Source: Desulfofundulus kuznetsovii DSM 6115 (GTDB lineage Bacteria; Bacillota; Desulfotomaculia; Desulfotomaculales; Desulfovirgulaceae). From it: a stretch of 64,000 bases of DNA. Positions 3,361-14,098 of this stretch are shown here, in pieces. Location of the stretch: assembly GCF_000214705.1 (NCBI RefSeq), contig NC_015573.1:2983001-3047000 (forward strand). Direction: 5' to 3'. The notes below the pieces were generated by a model. The model did not search any database and was not told where the DNA came from. It saw only the letters and a program-made list of their open reading frames with translations. Each line of letters starts with the position of its first letter. Position 1 is the first letter of the stretch. The position numbers and the translations under genes were made by a program.

Positions 3361-3379
3361 TAACTGTTTTCTACTCTTA
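3361..3379 (-). promoter_or_regulatory. Protospacer-like site in the cas3 promoter
   Basis: The minus-strand sequence TAAGAGTAGAAAACAGTTA matches the spacer-like segment of the neighbouring mini-CRISPR (3517-3535) at 16 of 19 positions. The mismatches are at guide positions 5, 12 and 18. It begins on the candidate -10 element of cas3. The bases just 5' of it read TTCT, so a TTC or TCT adjacent motif is possible. Binding of a guided effector here would block transcription of cas3 and the genes after it. Confidence 0.55.
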
Positions 3380-3401: not shown

Positions 3402-3497
3402 ATATATGCGGGCAGACCTGCCACTAAGCCTGTCCATTAAGATATGCATAATTTTGGTTATAAAACATAAAAATAAATATATATTCTTTGGACCTCG

Positions 3498-3569
3498 TAT
3501 AATAGGGGACTGAAACTAAGTGTAGAACACAGTCATTCTCTCTCCTTTTGACCCGACGACAAGGGGACT
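3498..3569 (+). ncRNA. Candidate crRNA-like regulatory RNA from a degenerate mini-CRISPR
   Basis: A perfect TATAAT at 3498-3503 precedes AGGGGACTGAAA (3504-3515), which matches the 3' end of the array repeat. Then come about 31 nt of unique sequence (3517-3547) and a 5'-truncated repeat, TTGACCCGACGACAAGGGG and three more bases (3548-3569), with one internal mismatch. Transcription starting six bases after the -10 box would begin exactly at ACTGAAAC, the 8-nt crRNA 5' handle with its last base changed. No good -35 box is visible. The unique part matches the cas3 promoter on the opposite strand. The layout (altered repeat, guide, altered repeat beside cas genes) is that of CreA/CreR-type guide RNAs; the function here is inferred. 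Confidence 0.55.
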
Positions 3570-5514: not shown

Positions 5515-6537
5515 TCAGACCAATTCCACCCGGTACTTCCCCATCCCGAAAACCGCTCCTTTTCCTACATGGACCAGTTCGCCCAGCCGCAAAAGGGGGA
5601 TGAATTCCGCCACCTCTCCCTCGTATACAGCCCGGCCCACCACGCCGCCCATCTTTATCCTGCTGTCCTGGCGGGCGGAAAACCGCTCCCAGTCCACCCA
5701 GCGGGTATGGTCTTCCGCCAGCCTTACCCTTGCGGCCCGGGCGATCAGCCCGGTGAAATCCAGCTTTAATTCTTCGCCGTGGTGGAAATAAGCCAGGGAG
5801 GAAAGGCGGCGCAGGAGGTTCCGGATGAGCACGTGAAATTCGATCTTACCGGCGTAGGCTTCCGCGTACTTAAGGCGGGTCATGGTCAAAAAATCGATTG
5901 CCAGGCGGCCCGGTTCTGTACCGGGCGGCTGCGGGACAAAAGACTCCGGGGACGATGGATGCAAATCACGCGGCGGCCCGTAAAACTCTGCGAGTCCCGG
6001 AATGTCGCTCCCCCGCACCGGGAGTTCTATATTTCTAACCAATCTGTCCTGGTCAAGGTATATGGACGCCCGCCGGTTTTTCAGGGGATCCACCGCCACA
6101 ATTTCTTTCAGGCGGTATTTTTTGCGCCCTTTGCCGATTCCCACCTCACCCAATTCTTTGAAAGCCACGATGAAATAGGGCAGGTAAGACACGGCTTTGC
6201 CGATGAGGATCAGCCGGAAGGCCAGTGTCTCTCCGGGGCGGTAAAAGGTCTTTTCTTCCAGGGGGGGCTCGAGAACGAACGGGCGTGGTACGTTGTCATA
6301 ATTGCGGAGAGCCTCCGAACCGGGGGGAGGACTGGTTTCGAAGATGTAGGCATAGGGGCAGTGCTGGTTTAGAAGGCAGTTCCGGCAATCTTTTTGCCGT
6401 GATGTACAGGTAATGCGCTGGAAAACCCGGCCGAATCCCCCGCGCAGGGTCGAACCCTTGTAGGGTGGCAGGATCAGCCCTTCCCGGCCGGCCACCAGGA
6501 TTATCTCGTAGATGGCAACGCGAAAATTCACCAGCAT
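5515..6537 (-). CDS. cas6: Cas6-family pre-crRNA processing endoribonuclease
   Basis: The 340-residue RAMP protein should cleave the array transcript within each repeat, leaving an 8-nt 5' handle. Near residues 26-65 it has the PPYKGSTLRGGFGR region followed by CRNCLLNQHCPYAYIFE, a cysteine-containing segment typical of this Cas6 branch. The C-terminus carries the glycine-rich GKGAVFGMGKY loop that defines the Cas6 C-terminal domain. A ribosome site (GAAGGAAG) precedes the ATG at 6537. It stands apart from cas3, with its own upstream region that contains a solitary repeat and a copy of the array leader end, so its expression may be tied to leader-type promoter sequence. Confidence 0.88.
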   Translation of the reverse strand: MLVNFRVAIYEIILVAGREGLILPPYKGSTLRGGFGRVFQRITCTSRQKDCRNCLLNQHCPYAYIFETSPPPGSEALRNYDNVPRPFVLEPPLEEKTFYRPGETLAFRLILIGKAVSYLPYFIVAFKELGEVGIGKGRKKYRLKEIVAVDPLKNRRASIYLDQDRLVRNIELPVRGSDIPGLAEFYGPPRDLHPSSPESFVPQPPGTEPGRLAIDFLTMTRLKYAEAYAGKIEFHVLIRNLLRRLSSLAYFHHGEELKLDFTGLIARAARVRLAEDHTRWVDWERFSARQDSRIKMGGVVGRAVYEGEVAEFIPLLRLGELVHVGKGAVFGMGKYRVELV

Positions 6538-6647
6538 GATACTTCCTTCAATTATCCTTCAATTATGGGTGTTTTTCTCGCATTGTTTCATTTCGACAGA
6601 AAAAGGTATATTCCTTCCTGCATTGGTCGAAAAAACCATTTTTAAAA

Positions 6648-6731
6648 GAAAAAGTCCCCTCGTCGTCGGGTCAACGGGTGCAACTCCGACCGCGAGGGTG
6701 CAGTAAAAATCCAGCTGTATTGCGGGCTGGC
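6648..6731 (-). CRISPR. Solitary degenerate repeat with a 45-bp copy of the array leader end, upstream of cas6
   Basis: Bases 6648-6684 align over 37 nt with the array repeat. Only two of the 32 bases at 6653-6684 differ, while the five at 6648-6652 (the crRNA-handle end) are all changed. Bases 6687-6731 are identical over 45 nt to 11,951-11,995, the leader side of the array's first repeat; two extra bases (TC) separate repeat and leader here. Orientation is the same as in the main array. It is either a relic of a second array or a kept regulatory repeat in the cas6 leader, 110 nt before the cas6 ATG. No second repeat follows it. Confidence 0.85.
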
Positions 6732-6823
6732 TTTTTCATCCCGTACTTCACAGAACCGCTGGCGCAATTCATCGCCGGTGATGTGCAGGTCTTTCTTAAC
6801 AAGCAACCGGTAATAAGTTCCAC

Positions 6824-7408
6824 TTACGAATCCCCGAATATCTCCTTCAGGGAAAGATTAAAGTCTTCAAAAAAACTTACTTTTACCACATCGTCGCGGG
6901 CATATATCTCGGGCCTTCCGTACCTGCCGTCAGTACCCAGCCTGTACACCATAACGATCCCGTCTACCGGGTGAACAAGCCAGTATTCCTTCACGCCGTG
7001 CTTTTCGTAAAGGGCAAGCTTTTTAATGTAATCAAGGGAAGCCGTCCCAGGGGAGGTCACCTCAACGATCAGGTCGGGGCTTCCTTTGCAACCGCGGTCG
7101 TCTAATTTGTTCTTATCGCAGACCACCACGATGTCCGGCTGCACTACGGTTTTAATCTCTTCATCTTTTTCTTCCCCTGCCGGCAGGCGGACGTCAAAGG
7201 GAGCCGCGTATACCTCGCAATCTTTCCCCTTGAGGTAATTGTAAAATTCGCCCAGGAGGGCGGTGAGCACTTTCTGGTGCCTCCGTGAGGGCGCCGGGCC
7301 AAGGCGATGGGCAAACCCTTCGATGATCTCCCACCTTTCCCCAGCAGGCCAGGTTAAATAGTCACCGTAGGTATAGCCACCGTTTGCTTGTTGTCGTGGG
7401 TAAGCCAA
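6824..7408 (-). CDS. Uma2-family (DUF820) PD-(D/E)XK nuclease-like protein
   Basis: The 194-residue protein has the family's pattern: WEIIEG near residue 27, then PDIVVVCD near 90, LIVEVTSPGT near 112 and the lysine in YIKKLALYEKHGVKEYWLV near 128. These give the acidic residues and lysine of a restriction-like nuclease fold. The molecular role of Uma2 proteins is generally unknown; they are numerous in cyanobacteria and Clostridia. The start is TTG at 7408 behind AAGGAGG with good spacing. It sits between cas6 and the array, but nothing shows that it takes part in CRISPR function. Confidence 0.85.
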   Translation of the reverse strand: MAYPRQQANGGYTYGDYLTWPAGERWEIIEGFAHRLGPAPSRRHQKVLTALLGEFYNYLKGKDCEVYAAPFDVRLPAGEEKDEEIKTVVQPDIVVVCDKNKLDDRGCKGSPDLIVEVTSPGTASLDYIKKLALYEKHGVKEYWLVHPVDGIVMVYRLGTDGRYGRPEIYARDDVVKVSFFEDFNLSLKEIFGDS

Positions 7409-7696
7409 AGATGGTTCCTCCTTTGTCGTTTTTGGTTGCCCGCTAAGTGGTAAACCGCTCTTTTATAATTTTGAACCTTCTACCCTTTCTTTCATTCTTT
7501 TCCCTTTCAAACGAATGATTCGCCACAACTCTACACTCGTTCATAGTAGCTAAATCCTTAACTCGATCTAACCAACCGGTAAAGGTAAGAGAGCCCCTTT
7601 CTGGACACTGTCTTTTCCCATGCTTTTTTCATCGCTAAGTACATTTACTTTCTCGAAAATCAGGCCTTCCCCCAATCATCCATCATCGGGGCTTGT
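7409..7696. other. AT-rich intergenic region between the Uma2 gene and the leader-distal end of the array
   Basis: The stretch presumably holds the promoter of the Uma2 gene and the end of the array transcript. It has no open frame with a ribosome site. I could not pick a convincing promoter. Confidence 0.4.
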
Positions 7697-10600
7697 CTTT
7701 CAGTCCCCTTTTCGTCGGGTCAACGGGTGTAACTTTGCGGGCTAAATATGGATGATGTAGATCTTAACTTCTTTCAGTCCCCTTTTCGTCGGGTCAGTGG
7801 GTGCAACTGTTACGCAACTCCTGGGGTTCTGGCTGGGGTATCGACTTTCAGTCCCCTTTTCGTCGGGTCAACGGGTGCAACTTCCTGGCCTCCCCCGTCC
7901 GGTCAGTCCAAGCGGCGTCTTTCAGTCCCCTTTTCGTCGGGTCAACGGGTGCAACTCAACTTCGTCTTGGCTGCGTTTGACGCCCAAATTTTTGCCTTTC
8001 AGTCCCCTTTTCGTCGGGTCAACGGGTGCAACTTGCCGTCATTTTTAAATTCCTCCTTCCCACGCCGGTCTTTCAGTCCCCTTTTCGTCGGGTCAACGGG
8101 TGCAACTCAACTTCGTCTTGGCTGCGTTTGACGCCCAAATTTTTGCCTTTCAGTCCCCTTTTCGTCGGGTCAACGGGTGCAACTTCTACTCTTTGAAATT
8201 TTCTACCAGAGGTTAATATCTTTCAGTCCCCTTTTCGTCGGGTCAACGGGTGCAACAATCCAAAGACATGATAGCCAGTCAATGTTGTTTGATACTTTCA
8301 GTCCCCTTTTCGTCGGGTCAACGGGTGCAACTTCTACTCTTTGAAATTTTCTACCAGAGGTTAATATCTTTCAGTCCCCTTTTCGTCGGGTCAACGGGTG
8401 CAACCCCTCGTGGCCGCACCCTTCGAAGTACCTGGCCGCCTGTTCCTTTCAGTCCCCTTTTCGTCGGGTCAACGGGTGCAACCGATACTGACTACATCGG
8501 CTCTCCTGCTGGCCGTACACTTTCAGTCCCCTTTTCGTCGGGTCAACGGGTGCAACCTTCTTTTAAAACCAGAAGAAGTGGCCGATATTTTCTTTCAGTC
8601 CCCTTTTCGTCGGGTCAACGGGTGCAACTTGGAAGCAAAGCTAACAAACTCATTATCTATCTCAAACTTTCAGTCCCCTTTTCGTCGGGTCAACGGGTGC
8701 AACTCCCCTGCTCCGCAACTGTCAGGACTGTCCTCTTCCTTTCAGTCCCCTTTTCGTCGGGTCAACGGGTGCAACCGGATTCGGCCCGGGCTACGGCCCG
8801 CAGCAGTGATGCTTTCAGTCCCCTTTTCGTCGGGTCAACGGGTGCAACATGACGTGGAGCGGGTACGACCTGGTGGAGACGAGACTTTCAGTCCCCTTTT
8901 CGTCGGGTCAACGGGTGCAACCGATGTCCGCCGGAGTGAGTGCATCGCTACCTCCAGCTTTCAGTCCCCTTTTCGTCGGGTCAACGGGTGCAACTAATGT
9001 GTACGAAGGTTGGGCTCAAAATTATGTAACGCTTTCAGTCCCCTTTTCGTCGGGTCAACGGGTGCAACTTGTTCGGCCCGTTCAGCATCCATCAGGTGCA
9101 GGATATTCTTTCAGTCCCCTTTTCGTCGGGTCAACGGGTGCAACAGGCGTTCCGTGTTGCTGAACGCCCCGATATGGTCCCTTTCAGTCCCCTTTTCGTC
9201 GGGTCAACGGGTGCAACAAGGATCGAGTTCAGGAGCAGGGCGGGACAACAATCTTTCAGTCCCCTTTTCGTCGGGTCAACGGGTGCAACGCCTTCTCCTT
9301 ACAGAAAATTTGAAGTCAAATAGGGCTTTCAGTCCCCTTTTCGTCGGGTCAACGGGTGCAACGCAGAAGGTACTCTTCTAAGTTTGCCGTAAAGGCACTT
9401 TCAGTCCCCTTTTCGTCGGGTCAACGGGTGCAACCTTACTTGCGCATCGCCTGACGACGATGCGCGTGCCTTTCAGTCCCCTTTTCGTCGGGTCAACGGG
9501 TGCAACTCTAATGAGTCGGCAGCAAGGTAAAGGGTGCTCTCCCCTTTCAGTCCCCTTTTCGTCGGGTCAACGGGTGCAACGGCCTGGGGCATATGTTCCG
9601 GTGCCGGTGCTGGTGCTTTCAGTCCCCTTTTCGTCGGGTCAACGGGTGCAACTGTGGAGAAGGATTTTCCGGTTGCTCTTCGCCCCCTGGCTTTCAGTCC
9701 CCTTTTCGTCGGGTCAACGGGTGCAACGCGGCCCGATTTAGACCCGCACATGCGCGTCAGGTTCTTTCAGTCCCCTTTTCGTCGGGTCAACGGGTGCAAC
9801 TACTGCAGCGGCACCCGTTAAGAAGCACGCCTACGGCTTTCAGTCCCCTTTTCGTCGGGTCAACGGGTGCAACGTTCCACCATCCCGAAGCCGTAGGCCC
9901 TCTTTTTACCCACTTTCAGTCCCCTTTTCGTCGGGTCAACGGGTGCAACCCGCCCAGGGCGAGCAGATGAGCGATTGGATCACCCCTTTCAGTCCCCTTT
10001 TCGTCGGGTCAACGGGTGCAACCGAGAACCTGATCTTCGTGGAGGACCCCGCCGAATCGACTTTCAGTCCCCTTTTCGTCGGGTCAACGGGTGCAACGAT
10101 GAGTTTCATCTTTAACGGTATAAGCAGCGACAGCTTCTTTCAGTCCCCTTTTCGTCGGGTCAACGGGTGCAACTCACCTGTACGCCGGCCCCCGGCTCCC
10201 AGCCAGGGCTTTCAGTCCCCTTTTCGTCGGGTCAACGGGTGCAACGCAGAAGGTACTCTTCTAAGTTTGCCGTAAAGGCACTTTCAGTCCCCTTTTCGTC
10301 GGGTCAACGGGTGCAACCTTACTTGCGCATCGCCTGACGACGATGCGCGTGCCTTTCAGTCCCCTTTTCGTCGGGTCAACGGGTGCAACTACCCCCGCAA
10401 TACTGCGAGGGTGTCTCTGGTGTTTATCTTTCAGTCCCCTTTTCGTCGGGTCAACGGGTGCAACGGAGCACAGTACGGGTGAATCGAACTTGACAATTTC
10501 CCTTTCAGTCCCCTTTTCGTCGGGTCAACGGGTGCAACTCATCCGCTACCAGGACCAGATCCTTGACCGTCTGGCTTTCAGTCCCCTTTTCGTCGGGTCA

Positions 10601-11950
10601 ACGGGTGCAACGTGGTTCGTACGAAAAACGGTCAGGAAAATACCGGCACTTTCAGTCCCCTTTTCGTCGGGTCAACGGGTGCAACCGTGGCCGAGGGGCC
10701 GGTTGATGAGTCTTCGGAGGCTTTCAGTCCCCTTTTCGTCGGGTCAACGGGTGCAACCGCACGATGCCCGGCATGGCCGTGATGTCGCTTTCACTTTCAG
10801 TCCCCTTTTCGTCGGGTCAACGGGTGCAACCTGTAGATGTACACATAATGGCCGTGGAACCCGGCACAAGCTTTCAGTCCCCTTTTCGTCGGGTCAACGG
10901 GTGCAACCGGGAGGAGGTTTTTAAACTCCCTGCCGCGTTGCCCTTTCAGTCCCCTTTTCGTCGGGTCAACGGGTGCAACTGGCTTGGATGAGGAAGATGA
11001 CGATAGTCTGCGTGCCCTTTCAGTCCCCTTTTCGTCGGGTCAACGGGTGCAACCTCGCGCGGCTGAAAGCGGGTTTTGTCATAGATAGCCTTTCAGTCCC
11101 CTTTTCGTCGGGTCAACGGGTGCAACGAAGCACCAGCTTGCTGGGCTGGTGCACGCATTCGACTCTTTCAGTCCCCTTTTCGTCGGGTCAACGGGTGCAA
11201 CTCCGGCGTGACCGCCCGGGTGTTTGGTCAGTTCTTAACACTTTCAGTCCCCTTTTCGTCGGGTCAACGGGTGCAACTTGAGTGTTCGTGTGACACCGTG
11301 ACACCTATTTTGACTTTCAGTCCCCTTTTCGTCGGGTCAACGGGTGCAACGACGAAGGGATAGAGTTTCTAAGGCGGCACGGGGTGAGGGCTTTCAGTCC
11401 CCTTTTCGTCGGGTCAACGGGTGCAACCTGGAGTAGGTCACTTCTGGTTTGGCGACATCCGCACTTTCAGTCCCCTTTTCGTCGGGTCAACGGGTGCAAC
11501 GGATACAAGCCCCAGTCACTGCAAATCAACACCCGGGGAGCTTTCAGTCCCCTTTTCGTCGGGTCAACGGGTGCAACGGCGGCACTCGTCCTTGGCCACC
11601 GCGTAGGTGTCCCGGACTTTCAGTCCCCTTTTCGTCGGGTCAACGGGTGCAACCTTGCGGACTGCTTGACCAGGCCCGCCAGCCTTTCACTTTCAGTCCC
11701 CTTTTCGTCGGGTCAACGGGTGCAACGCCGGTGAGTGGGTCTGGGCCGCAAGTGTGGCGCAGTACCTTTCAGTCCCCTTTTCGTCGGGTCAACGGGTGCA
11801 ACTAGGCAGTCTGGATGTTGGTGCGGAAGATGTTGTCCAGACTTTCAGTCCCCTTTTCGTCGGGTCAACGGGTGCAACTGAGAAACAATGGTTGGGGTTG
11901 ATTAATGAGCGCACTTTCAGTCCCCTTTTCGTCGGGTCAACGGGTGCAAC
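7697..11950 (-). CRISPR. CRISPR array, 58 repeats of 37 nt and 57 spacers
   Basis: The unit on the plus strand is CTTTCAGTCCCC, TTTTCGTCGGGTCA, ACGGGTGCAAC. I counted 58 copies, the first at 7697-7733 and the last at 11,914-11,950, spaced on average 74 bp, so spacers are about 35-40 nt. Read on the minus strand the repeat begins GTTGCACCC and ends GGGGACTGAAAG, the usual orientation for type I repeats. The low-coordinate repeats are degenerate (GTGTAAC in copy 1; GTCAGTGGG in copy 2), marking the old, leader-distal end; the leader is therefore at the high-coordinate end. Spacers 4 and 6 are identical, as are 7 and 9, 23 and 35, and 24 and 36. The length points to a long active history. Confidence 0.99.
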
Positions 11951-12213
11951 CGACCGCGAGGGTGCAGTAAAAATCCAGCTGTATTGCGGGCTGGCGGCTT
12001 TGTGATACCGCTCCGGAAAGCCGTTTTTTTCGAAAACTGGTTTTCTGCACAAAAACCGGGGGTATTTGCGAAAAGAACATACTTCTGCTCTCCCAGATAC
12101 TTATTCCATTTCTCCGCCGGGGAAAAAATACCTTCATTGGCAGTATATTTCCTTTGAAAAAAGGCCGCCGGAAATGCTTTTTGGAACCGGTAATGCTTAC
12201 TGGTAGAACCATT
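11951..12213 (-). promoter_or_regulatory. CRISPR leader region
   Basis: The sequence next to the undegenerated end of the array is A/T-richer, contains runs of A and T, and carries no gene. Its array-proximal 45 bp (11,951-11,995) recur exactly upstream of cas6. It should contain the array promoter and the signals for spacer integration; I could not identify a clear -35/-10 pair. The far boundary is set by the terminator of the next gene. Confidence 0.7.
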
Positions 12214-12239
12214 TAAAAAAATACCCCCTGGCGGGGGTG
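12214..12239 (-). terminator. Rho-independent terminator after the aldehyde oxidoreductase gene
   Basis: On the minus strand a GC hairpin (CACCCCCGCCAGGGGGT) is followed by ATTTTTTT. It lies about 100 bp after the stop codon and separates the operon from the CRISPR leader. Confidence 0.75.
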
Positions 12240-12340
12240 TGGTGGAGGATGGAACATTTCCCATTCGACAAGATAGGTTTTGCAGCTACTATCCCATAAA
12301 CCAGCCTGCGGAACAGTTACCCGGTCAACGGGCATCACTC

Positions 12341-14098
12341 TCAATTCCCAGGGGGAACGCCGTTTTGATCCCAGCCGCGCAGGCGGTAGTAGTCGTCCAG
12401 CATGGTATCCAGTTCCTGCCTGGTGATGATGTCCCGGCCGTCGTTAATTGGTTCGTTGAAGAACCTGGCCGGCAGCATGTCGTCCGCCCGGGTAGCACCT
12501 TCCCTGGTGTTGAAAAGGCGGGTGGCGGTGACAATCCGGTCGGCCAGCCGGGCCAGTTCCTCCCGGGTGTACTCCCAGCCGGTGGCTCCCTTTATCATGG
12601 CCACCAGGTCGTCCCAGTGGATCAGGTCGCGGAAAAAGACGCAGAAAATCATGGTGTTGAAAACCGTCAGCCGGTTTTCAAATTCAATGAAGAGGGCGGC
12701 TTTCCCCTCGGTGGTGGAGGGGTCGATCATCCCGCTCAGTTCCGGCTTGTAAAAGGTGGCCCGCAGGTGGCAGGCACCCCTGGGCGAGGTGGCGTAGGCC
12801 AGGCCCATCCCCTTCAGCACCCGGGGGTCGTAACCGGCCGGCTCCAGTCCCTTGACGTGAATGGCCAGGTCCTCCAGGCCCAGCTCAGTGGCCACCCGTT
12901 TTATGCCCTGGGCCAGCAATTCCCCCGGGCCGCGGGCGTGGGCGATATCCTCCAGCAGGCGGGCCGCTCCTTCGGCATCCCCGTAAGCTGGGTAACCTTT
13001 TACCCGGCCCCTTTCCCCGGCCTCCATCATCAAGGCCACCAGGTTCCCGGCGGTAATGGTGTCCATGCCAAGCCTGTCGCACAGGTCGTTGAGGTAGATT
13101 ACCTCGTCCAGCCTGTTAATGCCGCACAACCCGCCGAAGGCATAGATGGTTTCGTACTCGGGGCCTTCCAGCTTTAAGCCGGCATATTTACCTTCCTTTA
13201 TGGTGGTCAGCTTGCCGCAGGTCAGGAAGCAGTTGGGGCAGGCCCTGGCCCTGACTTCAAAATTCTGAAGCAACTTATCTCCGCTTAAATTTTCCCAATT
13301 GGGGTCGGTGCCCATGGACCAGTATCGGGCCGGAAACGCCATGGCGCCGTTCATGGTGCCTACCATAACAGTGGTGCCGTAGGTCTGGTAGGCCTTGACC
13401 CCCGGGTTGTCCCTGCCCTTTTCCCTGATGCGGCGGGCGGCCTCCTGCAAAAGGGCCGGATCGGCCGCCTCACAGCGGGCTTCCCCGTGGAAAACCAGGG
13501 CTTTGAGCTTTTTGGAACCCATTACGGCACCCATGCCGGTCCGCCCGGCAGAACGCCAGTAGTTGTTTTCAATGCAGGCAAACCGCACCAGGTTTTCCCC
13601 CGCCGGGCCGATGACCACGGCCTGGGCCCCCTTTTGCCCCACCTCCGCCAGCACTGCGTCTTCCGTGGCGTAAGTATCCTTTCCCCACAGGTGGGATGCA
13701 TCGCGGAAAACCACGCCCCGGTCGCTGATTTCCACGTATACGGGCGCATCAGACGCACCTTCCACAATCACCGCGTCGTAGCCGGTGCGGCGTATGGCCG
13801 GGGCCACCCGCCCGCCGGCATAGGATTCGGCGTAAAGCCCGGTCAGGGGGGATTTGCTGAACACCCCGTAGCGGCTGGACCCGGGCAGCAACGTGCCGGT
13901 GGCGGGACCGGCGGTGATAATCAGCTTGTTGGCCGGGGAGAGGGGATCTATTCCCGGCTCAACGTCGCGCAGCAACAGGTAGGTGCCCAGCCCTTTCCCC
14001 CCCAGGTAGTCCCGGTACACGCTTTCCGGCAATTCCTCCACCGCAAAGGACCGGTCCGAAAGGTTCAGGCGCAGCAACCTGCCGTAAAAACCGTACAT
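12341..14098 (-). CDS. aor: Aldehyde:ferredoxin oxidoreductase (tungsten/molybdenum pterin enzyme)
   Basis: The 585-residue protein should oxidise aldehydes to carboxylic acids with ferredoxin as acceptor, in the cytoplasm. The family signatures are the N-terminal FYGRLLRLNL start, GGKGLGTYLL near residue 33, the [4Fe-4S] ligands CPNCFLTC near residue 290, and GLEPAGYDPR near 405; a cysteine near 500 (MIFCVF) would be the fourth ligand. The start at ATG 14098 follows GGAAGGAGG; an in-frame extension upstream lacks a ribosome site. It follows the aminotransferase gene with a 31-bp gap. In this context it likely oxidises aldehydes formed from amino-acid-derived 2-oxo acids, supplying reduced ferredoxin. 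Confidence 0.93.
   Translation of the reverse strand: MYGFYGRLLRLNLSDRSFAVEELPESVYRDYLGGKGLGTYLLLRDVEPGIDPLSPANKLIITAGPATGTLLPGSSRYGVFSKSPLTGLYAESYAGGRVAPAIRRTGYDAVIVEGASDAPVYVEISDRGVVFRDASHLWGKDTYATEDAVLAEVGQKGAQAVVIGPAGENLVRFACIENNYWRSAGRTGMGAVMGSKKLKALVFHGEARCEAADPALLQEAARRIREKGRDNPGVKAYQTYGTTVMVGTMNGAMAFPARYWSMGTDPNWENLSGDKLLQNFEVRARACPNCFLTCGKLTTIKEGKYAGLKLEGPEYETIYAFGGLCGINRLDEVIYLNDLCDRLGMDTITAGNLVALMMEAGERGRVKGYPAYGDAEGAARLLEDIAHARGPGELLAQGIKRVATELGLEDLAIHVKGLEPAGYDPRVLKGMGLAYATSPRGACHLRATFYKPELSGMIDPSTTEGKAALFIEFENRLTVFNTMIFCVFFRDLIHWDDLVAMIKGATGWEYTREELARLADRIVTATRLFNTREGATRADDMLPARFFNEPINDGRDIITRQELDTMLDDYYRLRGWDQNGVPPGN

Follow-up and report, generated by a model that had tools for sequence, protein, structure and literature searches.

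The sequence analysed here (the window) is a 64,000-nucleotide (nt) stretch of the Desulfofundulus kuznetsovii DSM 6115 chromosome (NC_015573.1, forward-strand positions 2,983,001 to 3,047,000). It carries a clustered regularly interspaced short palindromic repeat (CRISPR) locus with a long array, array 1. Between this array and cas6 lies a single repeat joined to a short copy of the array leader, and this element is the subject of the present analysis. It comprises the following features, in the direction of transcription of cas6.

6686..6731, minus strand: 46-bp copy of the leader-1 end that lies nearest the repeats, with the inverted repeat CCAGC...GCTGG
6685, minus strand: additional A that separates the repeat from the leader copy (array GGTCG/GTTGC, here GGTCGGA/GTTGC)
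6648..6684, minus strand: solitary 37-nt CRISPR repeat with the apparently inherited ending ...GGGGACTTTTTC
6538..6647, minus strand: trailer and cas6 upstream region, orthologous in the D. thermobenzoicus and metagenome-assembled genomes described below
5515..6537, minus strand: cas6 (PF10040, E 8.2e-20; Cas6 model PDLC01477, E 6.9e-108)

An earlier reading of the DNA letters without database searches (the sequence-only reading) described an exact 45-bp leader copy followed by a repeat with a changed handle end and two internal changes, in the orientation of the array. All of this is borne out. Alignment of the leader copy with 11950-11995 gives 46 identities in 46 positions, the 46th base being the first G of the array repeat. 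The repeat is identical to the array-1 consensus at 30 of 37 positions (81%), and the seven differences are the last five bases (TTTTC for GAAAG) and two internal ones (AA to CG). The repeat, array 1 and cas6 all lie on the minus strand. The CCC-N8-GGG core is intact, as are the bases before the expected Cas6 cut, whose position we take to be that of the usual 8-nt handle. The leader/repeat junction is 2 nt longer than that of array 1, and 110 nt separate the end of the repeat from the cas6 start codon (6537). On the plus strand, the inverted repeat of the leader copy gives a terminator-like hairpin with a T-run (6711-6730; 0.4 expected per shuffle).

When the 82-nt leader and repeat sequence was used as a query against the whole 3.6-Mb genome, 123 matches were obtained. 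Only three span the leader stretch from the first base of the query, namely array 1 (1-82), the cas6 site (1-77, 95%) and array 2 (1-82, 90%), which excludes a chance origin of the leader copy.

The region between array 1 and the element contains further pieces of cas genes. Read on the minus strand, the order is the last array-1 repeat (7697), the end of cas5, a Uma2 gene, the end of csa1, the leader end, the extra A, the repeat and cas6.

11951..12220, minus strand: leader 1 (its upstream limit is approximate), the source of the 46-bp copy or its partner
7697..11950, minus strand: array 1, with 58 repeats, 56 exact and two variants at the trailer end
7534..7686, minus strand: broken 3' end of cas5 with frame changes and stops, directly behind the last array-1 repeat
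6824..7408, minus strand: intact open reading frame (ORF) of the Uma2 family (PF05685)
6729..6809, minus strand: 3' fragment of csa1 (Cas4 family), 27 codons with the frame open, cut at GATGAAAAAGCC

The cas5 remnant was identified by tblastn (E 2.5e-8 and 5.6e-8) with the cas5 product of a metagenome-assembled genome (MAG), which is titled Desulfovirgula and listed under the window's own genus. PADLOC names this query Cas5a (E 2.7e-63), while Pfam gave it no cas5 name. The csa1 fragment (tblastn E 9.5e-10) corresponds to the 83 bp just upstream of the leader copy, and 73 of these 83 bases are identical to the genome's own csa1. It also matches D. australicus at 97% over 77 bp, with the break at the same place, and the stretch upstream of the D. 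thermobenzoicus array at 90% over 83 bp. As csa1 ends at GATGAAAAAGCC and the leader piece starts with GCC, the two pieces are joined at a shared GCC.

The MAG has the gene order cas5, Uma2 remnant, HIRAN-domain gene, cas1, its truncated Uma2 homologue sitting between cas5 and the HIRAN-domain gene. In the window's genome the order is cas5, HIRAN gene, cas1, cas4, csa1, leader 2, array 2. The cas5, Uma2 and csa1 pieces follow this canonical order, and thus fit the tail of a second cas operon whose middle has been deleted. The sequence-only reading had suggested that the element might be left over from a second array or have arisen by duplication; the ordered fragments agree with this, as does an array found at the same place in the MAG.

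The element in related genomes

The search for Cas6 covered nine genomes of the family together with the genome contigs. Beyond the window's genome, cas6 was found in two family genomes, D. thermobenzoicus and the MAG, and a fragment of it in one more, D. australicus. The flank behind the repeat is orthologous in the window, D. thermobenzoicus and the MAG.

Ahead of the intact cas6 of D. thermobenzoicus, at a distance of 102 nt, stands a lone repeat that ends in ACTTTTTC (L041:3748-3784) and truncates a universal-stress-protein ORF (model positions 3-58 of 141). The locus upstream of its cas6 contains neither a leader nor a csa1 fragment. The effector genes belong to a different subtype, with Cas8b, Cas5b and Cas3b (type I-B by PADLOC models; L041:6710-12384). 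By their sequences the effector genes of the window fit type I-A models best (by PADLOC, Cas5a and Cas8a with a Cas11a-like end). Csa1 scores above the model cut-off, and for Cas3 the best NCBIfam match is a I-G model, below cut-off, and the best PADLOC match is Cas3a1. The two genomes have cas6, the WYL gene and the HIRAN gene-cas1 side in common. The presence of I-B genes in one and I-A genes in the other, between the common cas6-WYL and HIRAN gene-cas1 ends, is a module swap behind the same cas6.

In the MAG, the same aor gene precedes a long leader; four repeats, separated by three spacers of 37 nt, come next, and then the same trailer and cas6. All four repeats of this array (L039:276-534, contig 17 of G004) end in ACTTTTTC in place of ACTGAAAG. 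It seems that the variant was copied as the array regrew from a single repeat, which fits copying of the leader-proximal repeat. For parts of two of the three spacers (28 and 24 nt), no exact match was found in viral contigs.

In D. australicus, the cas genes have been lost from the locus, and cas6 is reduced to a 108-bp piece identical to the window. The scar (L046:9930-10174) consists of the csa1 fragment, the cas6 piece, a leader end of 27 bp and a single repeat; aor and Uma2 are also retained. The iron-type alcohol dehydrogenase gene that follows the repeat is 93% identical to one beyond the CRISPR locus of the window. The sequence 3' of this repeat recurs behind a lone MAG repeat (L107), so that this repeat probably marks the end of another array. 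Arrays seem to have been reduced to a leader end and one repeat more than once in the family. In the same genus, genome G003 has three decayed repeats of the ...ACAAGGGGACTGA type (L053, minus strand, ~1400-1600), and the Cas6 search of the family genomes found no Cas6 relative in it.

The ACTTTTTC ending is common to three genomes and is thus older than the element in the window. Judged from these alignments, the changed handle appears to be inherited and not a product of local decay. The internal GACGAC is likewise an ordinary repeat variant, present in a 38-repeat array on MAG contig 77 and in the lone D. thermobenzoicus repeat. The window's repeat would then go back to the array once adjoining cas6, of which it was probably the last repeat; one of its internal changes is private.

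Origin of the element and proposed control of cas6

We consider it very probable that the element is a recombination scar, the leftover of an older array and cas operon deleted from the chromosome. The older unit would have had the order ...cas5-Uma2-(HIRAN gene, cas1, cas4)-csa1-leader-array-cas6. In the course of events that we infer, its interior was lost, and one deletion would have brought csa1 up against the leader, of which the last 46 bp remained, with the 3-bp microhomology (GCC) as the joining point. All spacers would have gone, leaving the leader end and one repeat. This repeat would stem from the array next to cas6, most likely from the trailer end of that array, which would explain why it carries the ACTTTTTC ending, and the ending itself would predate the split from D. 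thermobenzoicus and the MAG. Several observations are as expected of a collapsed array: the leader end adjoins the repeat in array orientation, an array occupies the orthologous place in the MAG, and five of the seven changes fall in the last 5 nt. The element is now free of spacers, and most likely makes no CRISPR RNA (crRNA) and does nothing for cas6. As the CCC-N8-GGG core is unchanged, Cas6 could possibly still cut the repeat in a read-through transcript, as a residual activity.

Some observations weigh against a scar of this kind. The extra A, with the junction 2 nt longer, is unlike the product of clean repeat-by-repeat recombination. A repeat ending in ACTTTTTC precedes cas6 in all three of the nine family genomes searched that have a whole or contig-split cas6, and D. 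thermobenzoicus keeps it there despite a different upstream side. The bases of the core hairpin are unchanged in all three, although by our estimate four changes in 37 nt would spare these ten positions about one time in four by chance. In favour of a trailer-end origin, a changed 3' end is described as usual for end repeats in E. coli and Salmonella (PMC2886076) and in S. agalactiae (PMC4466440). Among five other arrays examined here, such end repeats were found in two (arrays 2 and 3 of the window's genome), but three have ordinary ones (array 1, D. thermobenzoicus and MAG contig 77), so that the identification as an end repeat is likely rather than proven. A last point against is that an exact overlap of 141 nt links MAG contig 17 (array and start of cas6) to contig 152 (rest of cas6), and this is the assembler's k-mer length according to the contig name; the join is consequently likely but unproven, and may be a branch point.

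The retention of the repeat in all three genomes leaves room for a role of its hairpin. The sequence-only reading suggested that a leader-like promoter drives cas6 and that the repeat, in the 5' untranslated region of the cas6 mRNA, is a target of Cas6. An array-end repeat would then be kept as a sensor, and Cas6, by binding to the leader of its own mRNA or cutting it, would limit and so tune the amount of the enzyme. If true, this would explain why the repeat alone has stayed next to cas6 despite exchange of the upstream side and, in D. thermobenzoicus, of the effector genes too. The stem and the bases before the cut are retained, and the repeat is on the same strand as cas6, 101-110 nt from its start codon, in all three genomes. 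We nevertheless regard such feedback as unlikely. Control of cas6 would predict constraint, but in a comparison of the window with D. thermobenzoicus 33 of 37 positions of the repeat are identical, against 160 of 171 four-fold degenerate sites of cas6 (Fisher p = 0.31). The repeat is present in all three genomes, but its sequence is no more conserved than synonymous sites and so gives the proposed control no support. The synteny that the earlier reading asked about holds for the repeat but not for the leader, which D. thermobenzoicus lacks; its cas6 evidently does not need a leader copy.

A leader promoter for cas6 was rejected on the further ground that the leader copy has no sigma-70-like site on the cas6 strand. 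None was found either on the array strand around leader 1 (11900-12400). On the minus strand between 6400 and 6900 there is no promoter-like site upstream of the repeat, and only a weak one downstream of it, before cas6 (6591-6562, 9 of 12 matches; 0.4 expected per shuffle), whose second hexamer the relatives do not share, as read by eye from an alignment. The repeat and a T-run as an intrinsic terminator or attenuator were also rejected, there being no flag on the minus strand. Predicted folding is at the level of shuffled sequences (z -0.29 for the repeat and tail, -0.11 for 147 nt), but ordinary array repeats do no better, so that this test says little. At the level of the order, 31 genomes had a match, and the cas6 loci of 27 of these were inspected over up to 1.5 kb upstream (L091 is partly N, and L096 has ~600 bases). 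An upstream repeat was found at one of the 27 loci and belongs to an ordinary array (L105), the criteria being arrays of exact 20-mers and three short motifs within 260 nt, which lone divergent repeats could escape. L085, L089 and L100 have a handle-like 8-mer upstream, but no sequence there that is repeated within their own genomes. On these comparisons, a repeat of this kind before cas6 does not appear to be general outside the family.

Two other functions can be considered. The leader end and repeat could be a nascent or still usable array site that awaits spacers, the leader/repeat junction being the place of the first step of spacer integration. The MAG, with a leader and four identical ACTTTTTC repeats at the same place, looks as if such a site had regrown. 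Here, however, the leader is reduced to 46 bp, the junction has 2 extra nt and there is no spacer, and this explanation seems to us very unlikely. The element could also be a guide gene in which a crRNA-like RNA from the repeat steers the effector to a cas promoter. In genes of this CreR type, the spacer between two repeats, which may be degenerate, matches a nearby promoter in part. The creR and creA genes likewise have an altered repeat next to a cas gene, but there is only one repeat here, and the sequence behind it matches cas upstream regions at shuffle level. With prefixes of 12, 17, 20 and 25 nt, between 52 and 995 of 1000 shuffles matched as well against the upstream regions of cas6, cas3 and cas6-WYL. 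Against the leader-1 region, one of the four prefixes gave 18 of 25 (13 of 1000 shuffles), which is unremarkable among 16 tests with T-rich sequence. A CreR-type guide from the lone repeat was rejected for want of a guide-like match to these regions, and is hardly credible.

The origin that we prefer, deletion of an older array and operon, shows how CRISPR loci are dismantled and which scars stay behind. It also warns against taking lone altered repeats near cas genes for regulators. An array of the MAG type would yield crRNAs with a ACUUUUUC handle, which makes their acceptance by Cas5 and Cas8 testable.

Other CRISPR elements of the genome

A second altered repeat structure lies upstream of cas3.

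3480-3569, plus strand: mini-CRISPR before cas3, with spacer TAAGTGTAGAACACAGT... and target 3363-3379

Its first repeat is very degenerate and contains TATAAT at 3498-3503, and its second repeat has 22 nt exactly matching the array repeat of a relative. The start of the spacer matches the region upstream of cas3 (3363-3379, minus strand) at 10 of 12, 15 of 17, 16 of 20 and 16 of 25 positions. The match was first noticed by eye and then tested with shuffles, of which 30 per 1000 (12 nt), 0 (17 nt), 0 (20 nt) and 30 (25 nt) reached these scores. Among 113 genomes of the class, the full stretch occurs only in the window's own; of the other matches, one relative was found through its 22-nt array repeats and one through an adjoining stretch of 33 bp. 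From this analysis the mini-CRISPR looks like a candidate regulator of the CreR type. It is literally true, as the sequence-only reading remarked, that an altered repeat stands upstream of both cas units. The mini-CRISPR passes the guide test whereas the cas6 element fails it, and the two should not be read as one pattern.

Elsewhere in the genome, there is a short array 3 of six varied repeats (G000:C1:2965685-2966088), adjoining an IstB/IS21-type gene pair. A lone repeat of the array-2 form (G000:C1:2968648-2968684) lies near a Mu/rve-type transposase gene. A second copy of cas6 (G000:C1:2962051-2962428, minus strand) is internally deleted, with residues 2-92 at 99% and 283-316 at 94%, and no CRISPR repeat was found in front of it. 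Within array 1, exact blocks of spacers and repeats are duplicated (7917-8034 = 8068-8185; 8147-8256 = 8295-8404; 9322-9507 = 10205-10390).

Comparison with known systems

A literature search by titles and the openings of abstracts returned, within those texts, no description of a leader-repeat element next to cas6. A survey of repeat-like elements would be expected to collect one upstream of a cas gene; at the present one no sign of regulation was found. The CreA and CreR guide genes resemble the present element in having an altered repeat near cas genes. Unlike them, it has neither a second repeat nor a guide that matches a cas upstream region.

Solitary repeat units and the RNA anti-CRISPRs (Racr), in the part of PMC10651486 that we draw on, also consist of a single repeat outside an array. 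They are found on phages or plasmids, away from cas genes, with at least 90% identity to a repeat. The repeat in the window is instead in a chromosomal cas locus, 110 nt from cas6 and on no known mobile element, with an identity of 30/37 (81%) and no upstream promoter found. Viral contigs searched by exact pattern, for the variant as well as for the ordinary repeat core, gave no match.

There is also a likeness to CRISPR loci reduced to a single repeat, which do exist, and to degenerate repeats at the trailer end of arrays (PMC2886076 and PMC4466440, in the parts consulted). As in these, there is a single repeat altered mainly at its 3' end. What sets the present locus apart from the loci described there is that its repeat abuts cas6 and is preceded by 46 bp of leader end and by a csa1 fragment.
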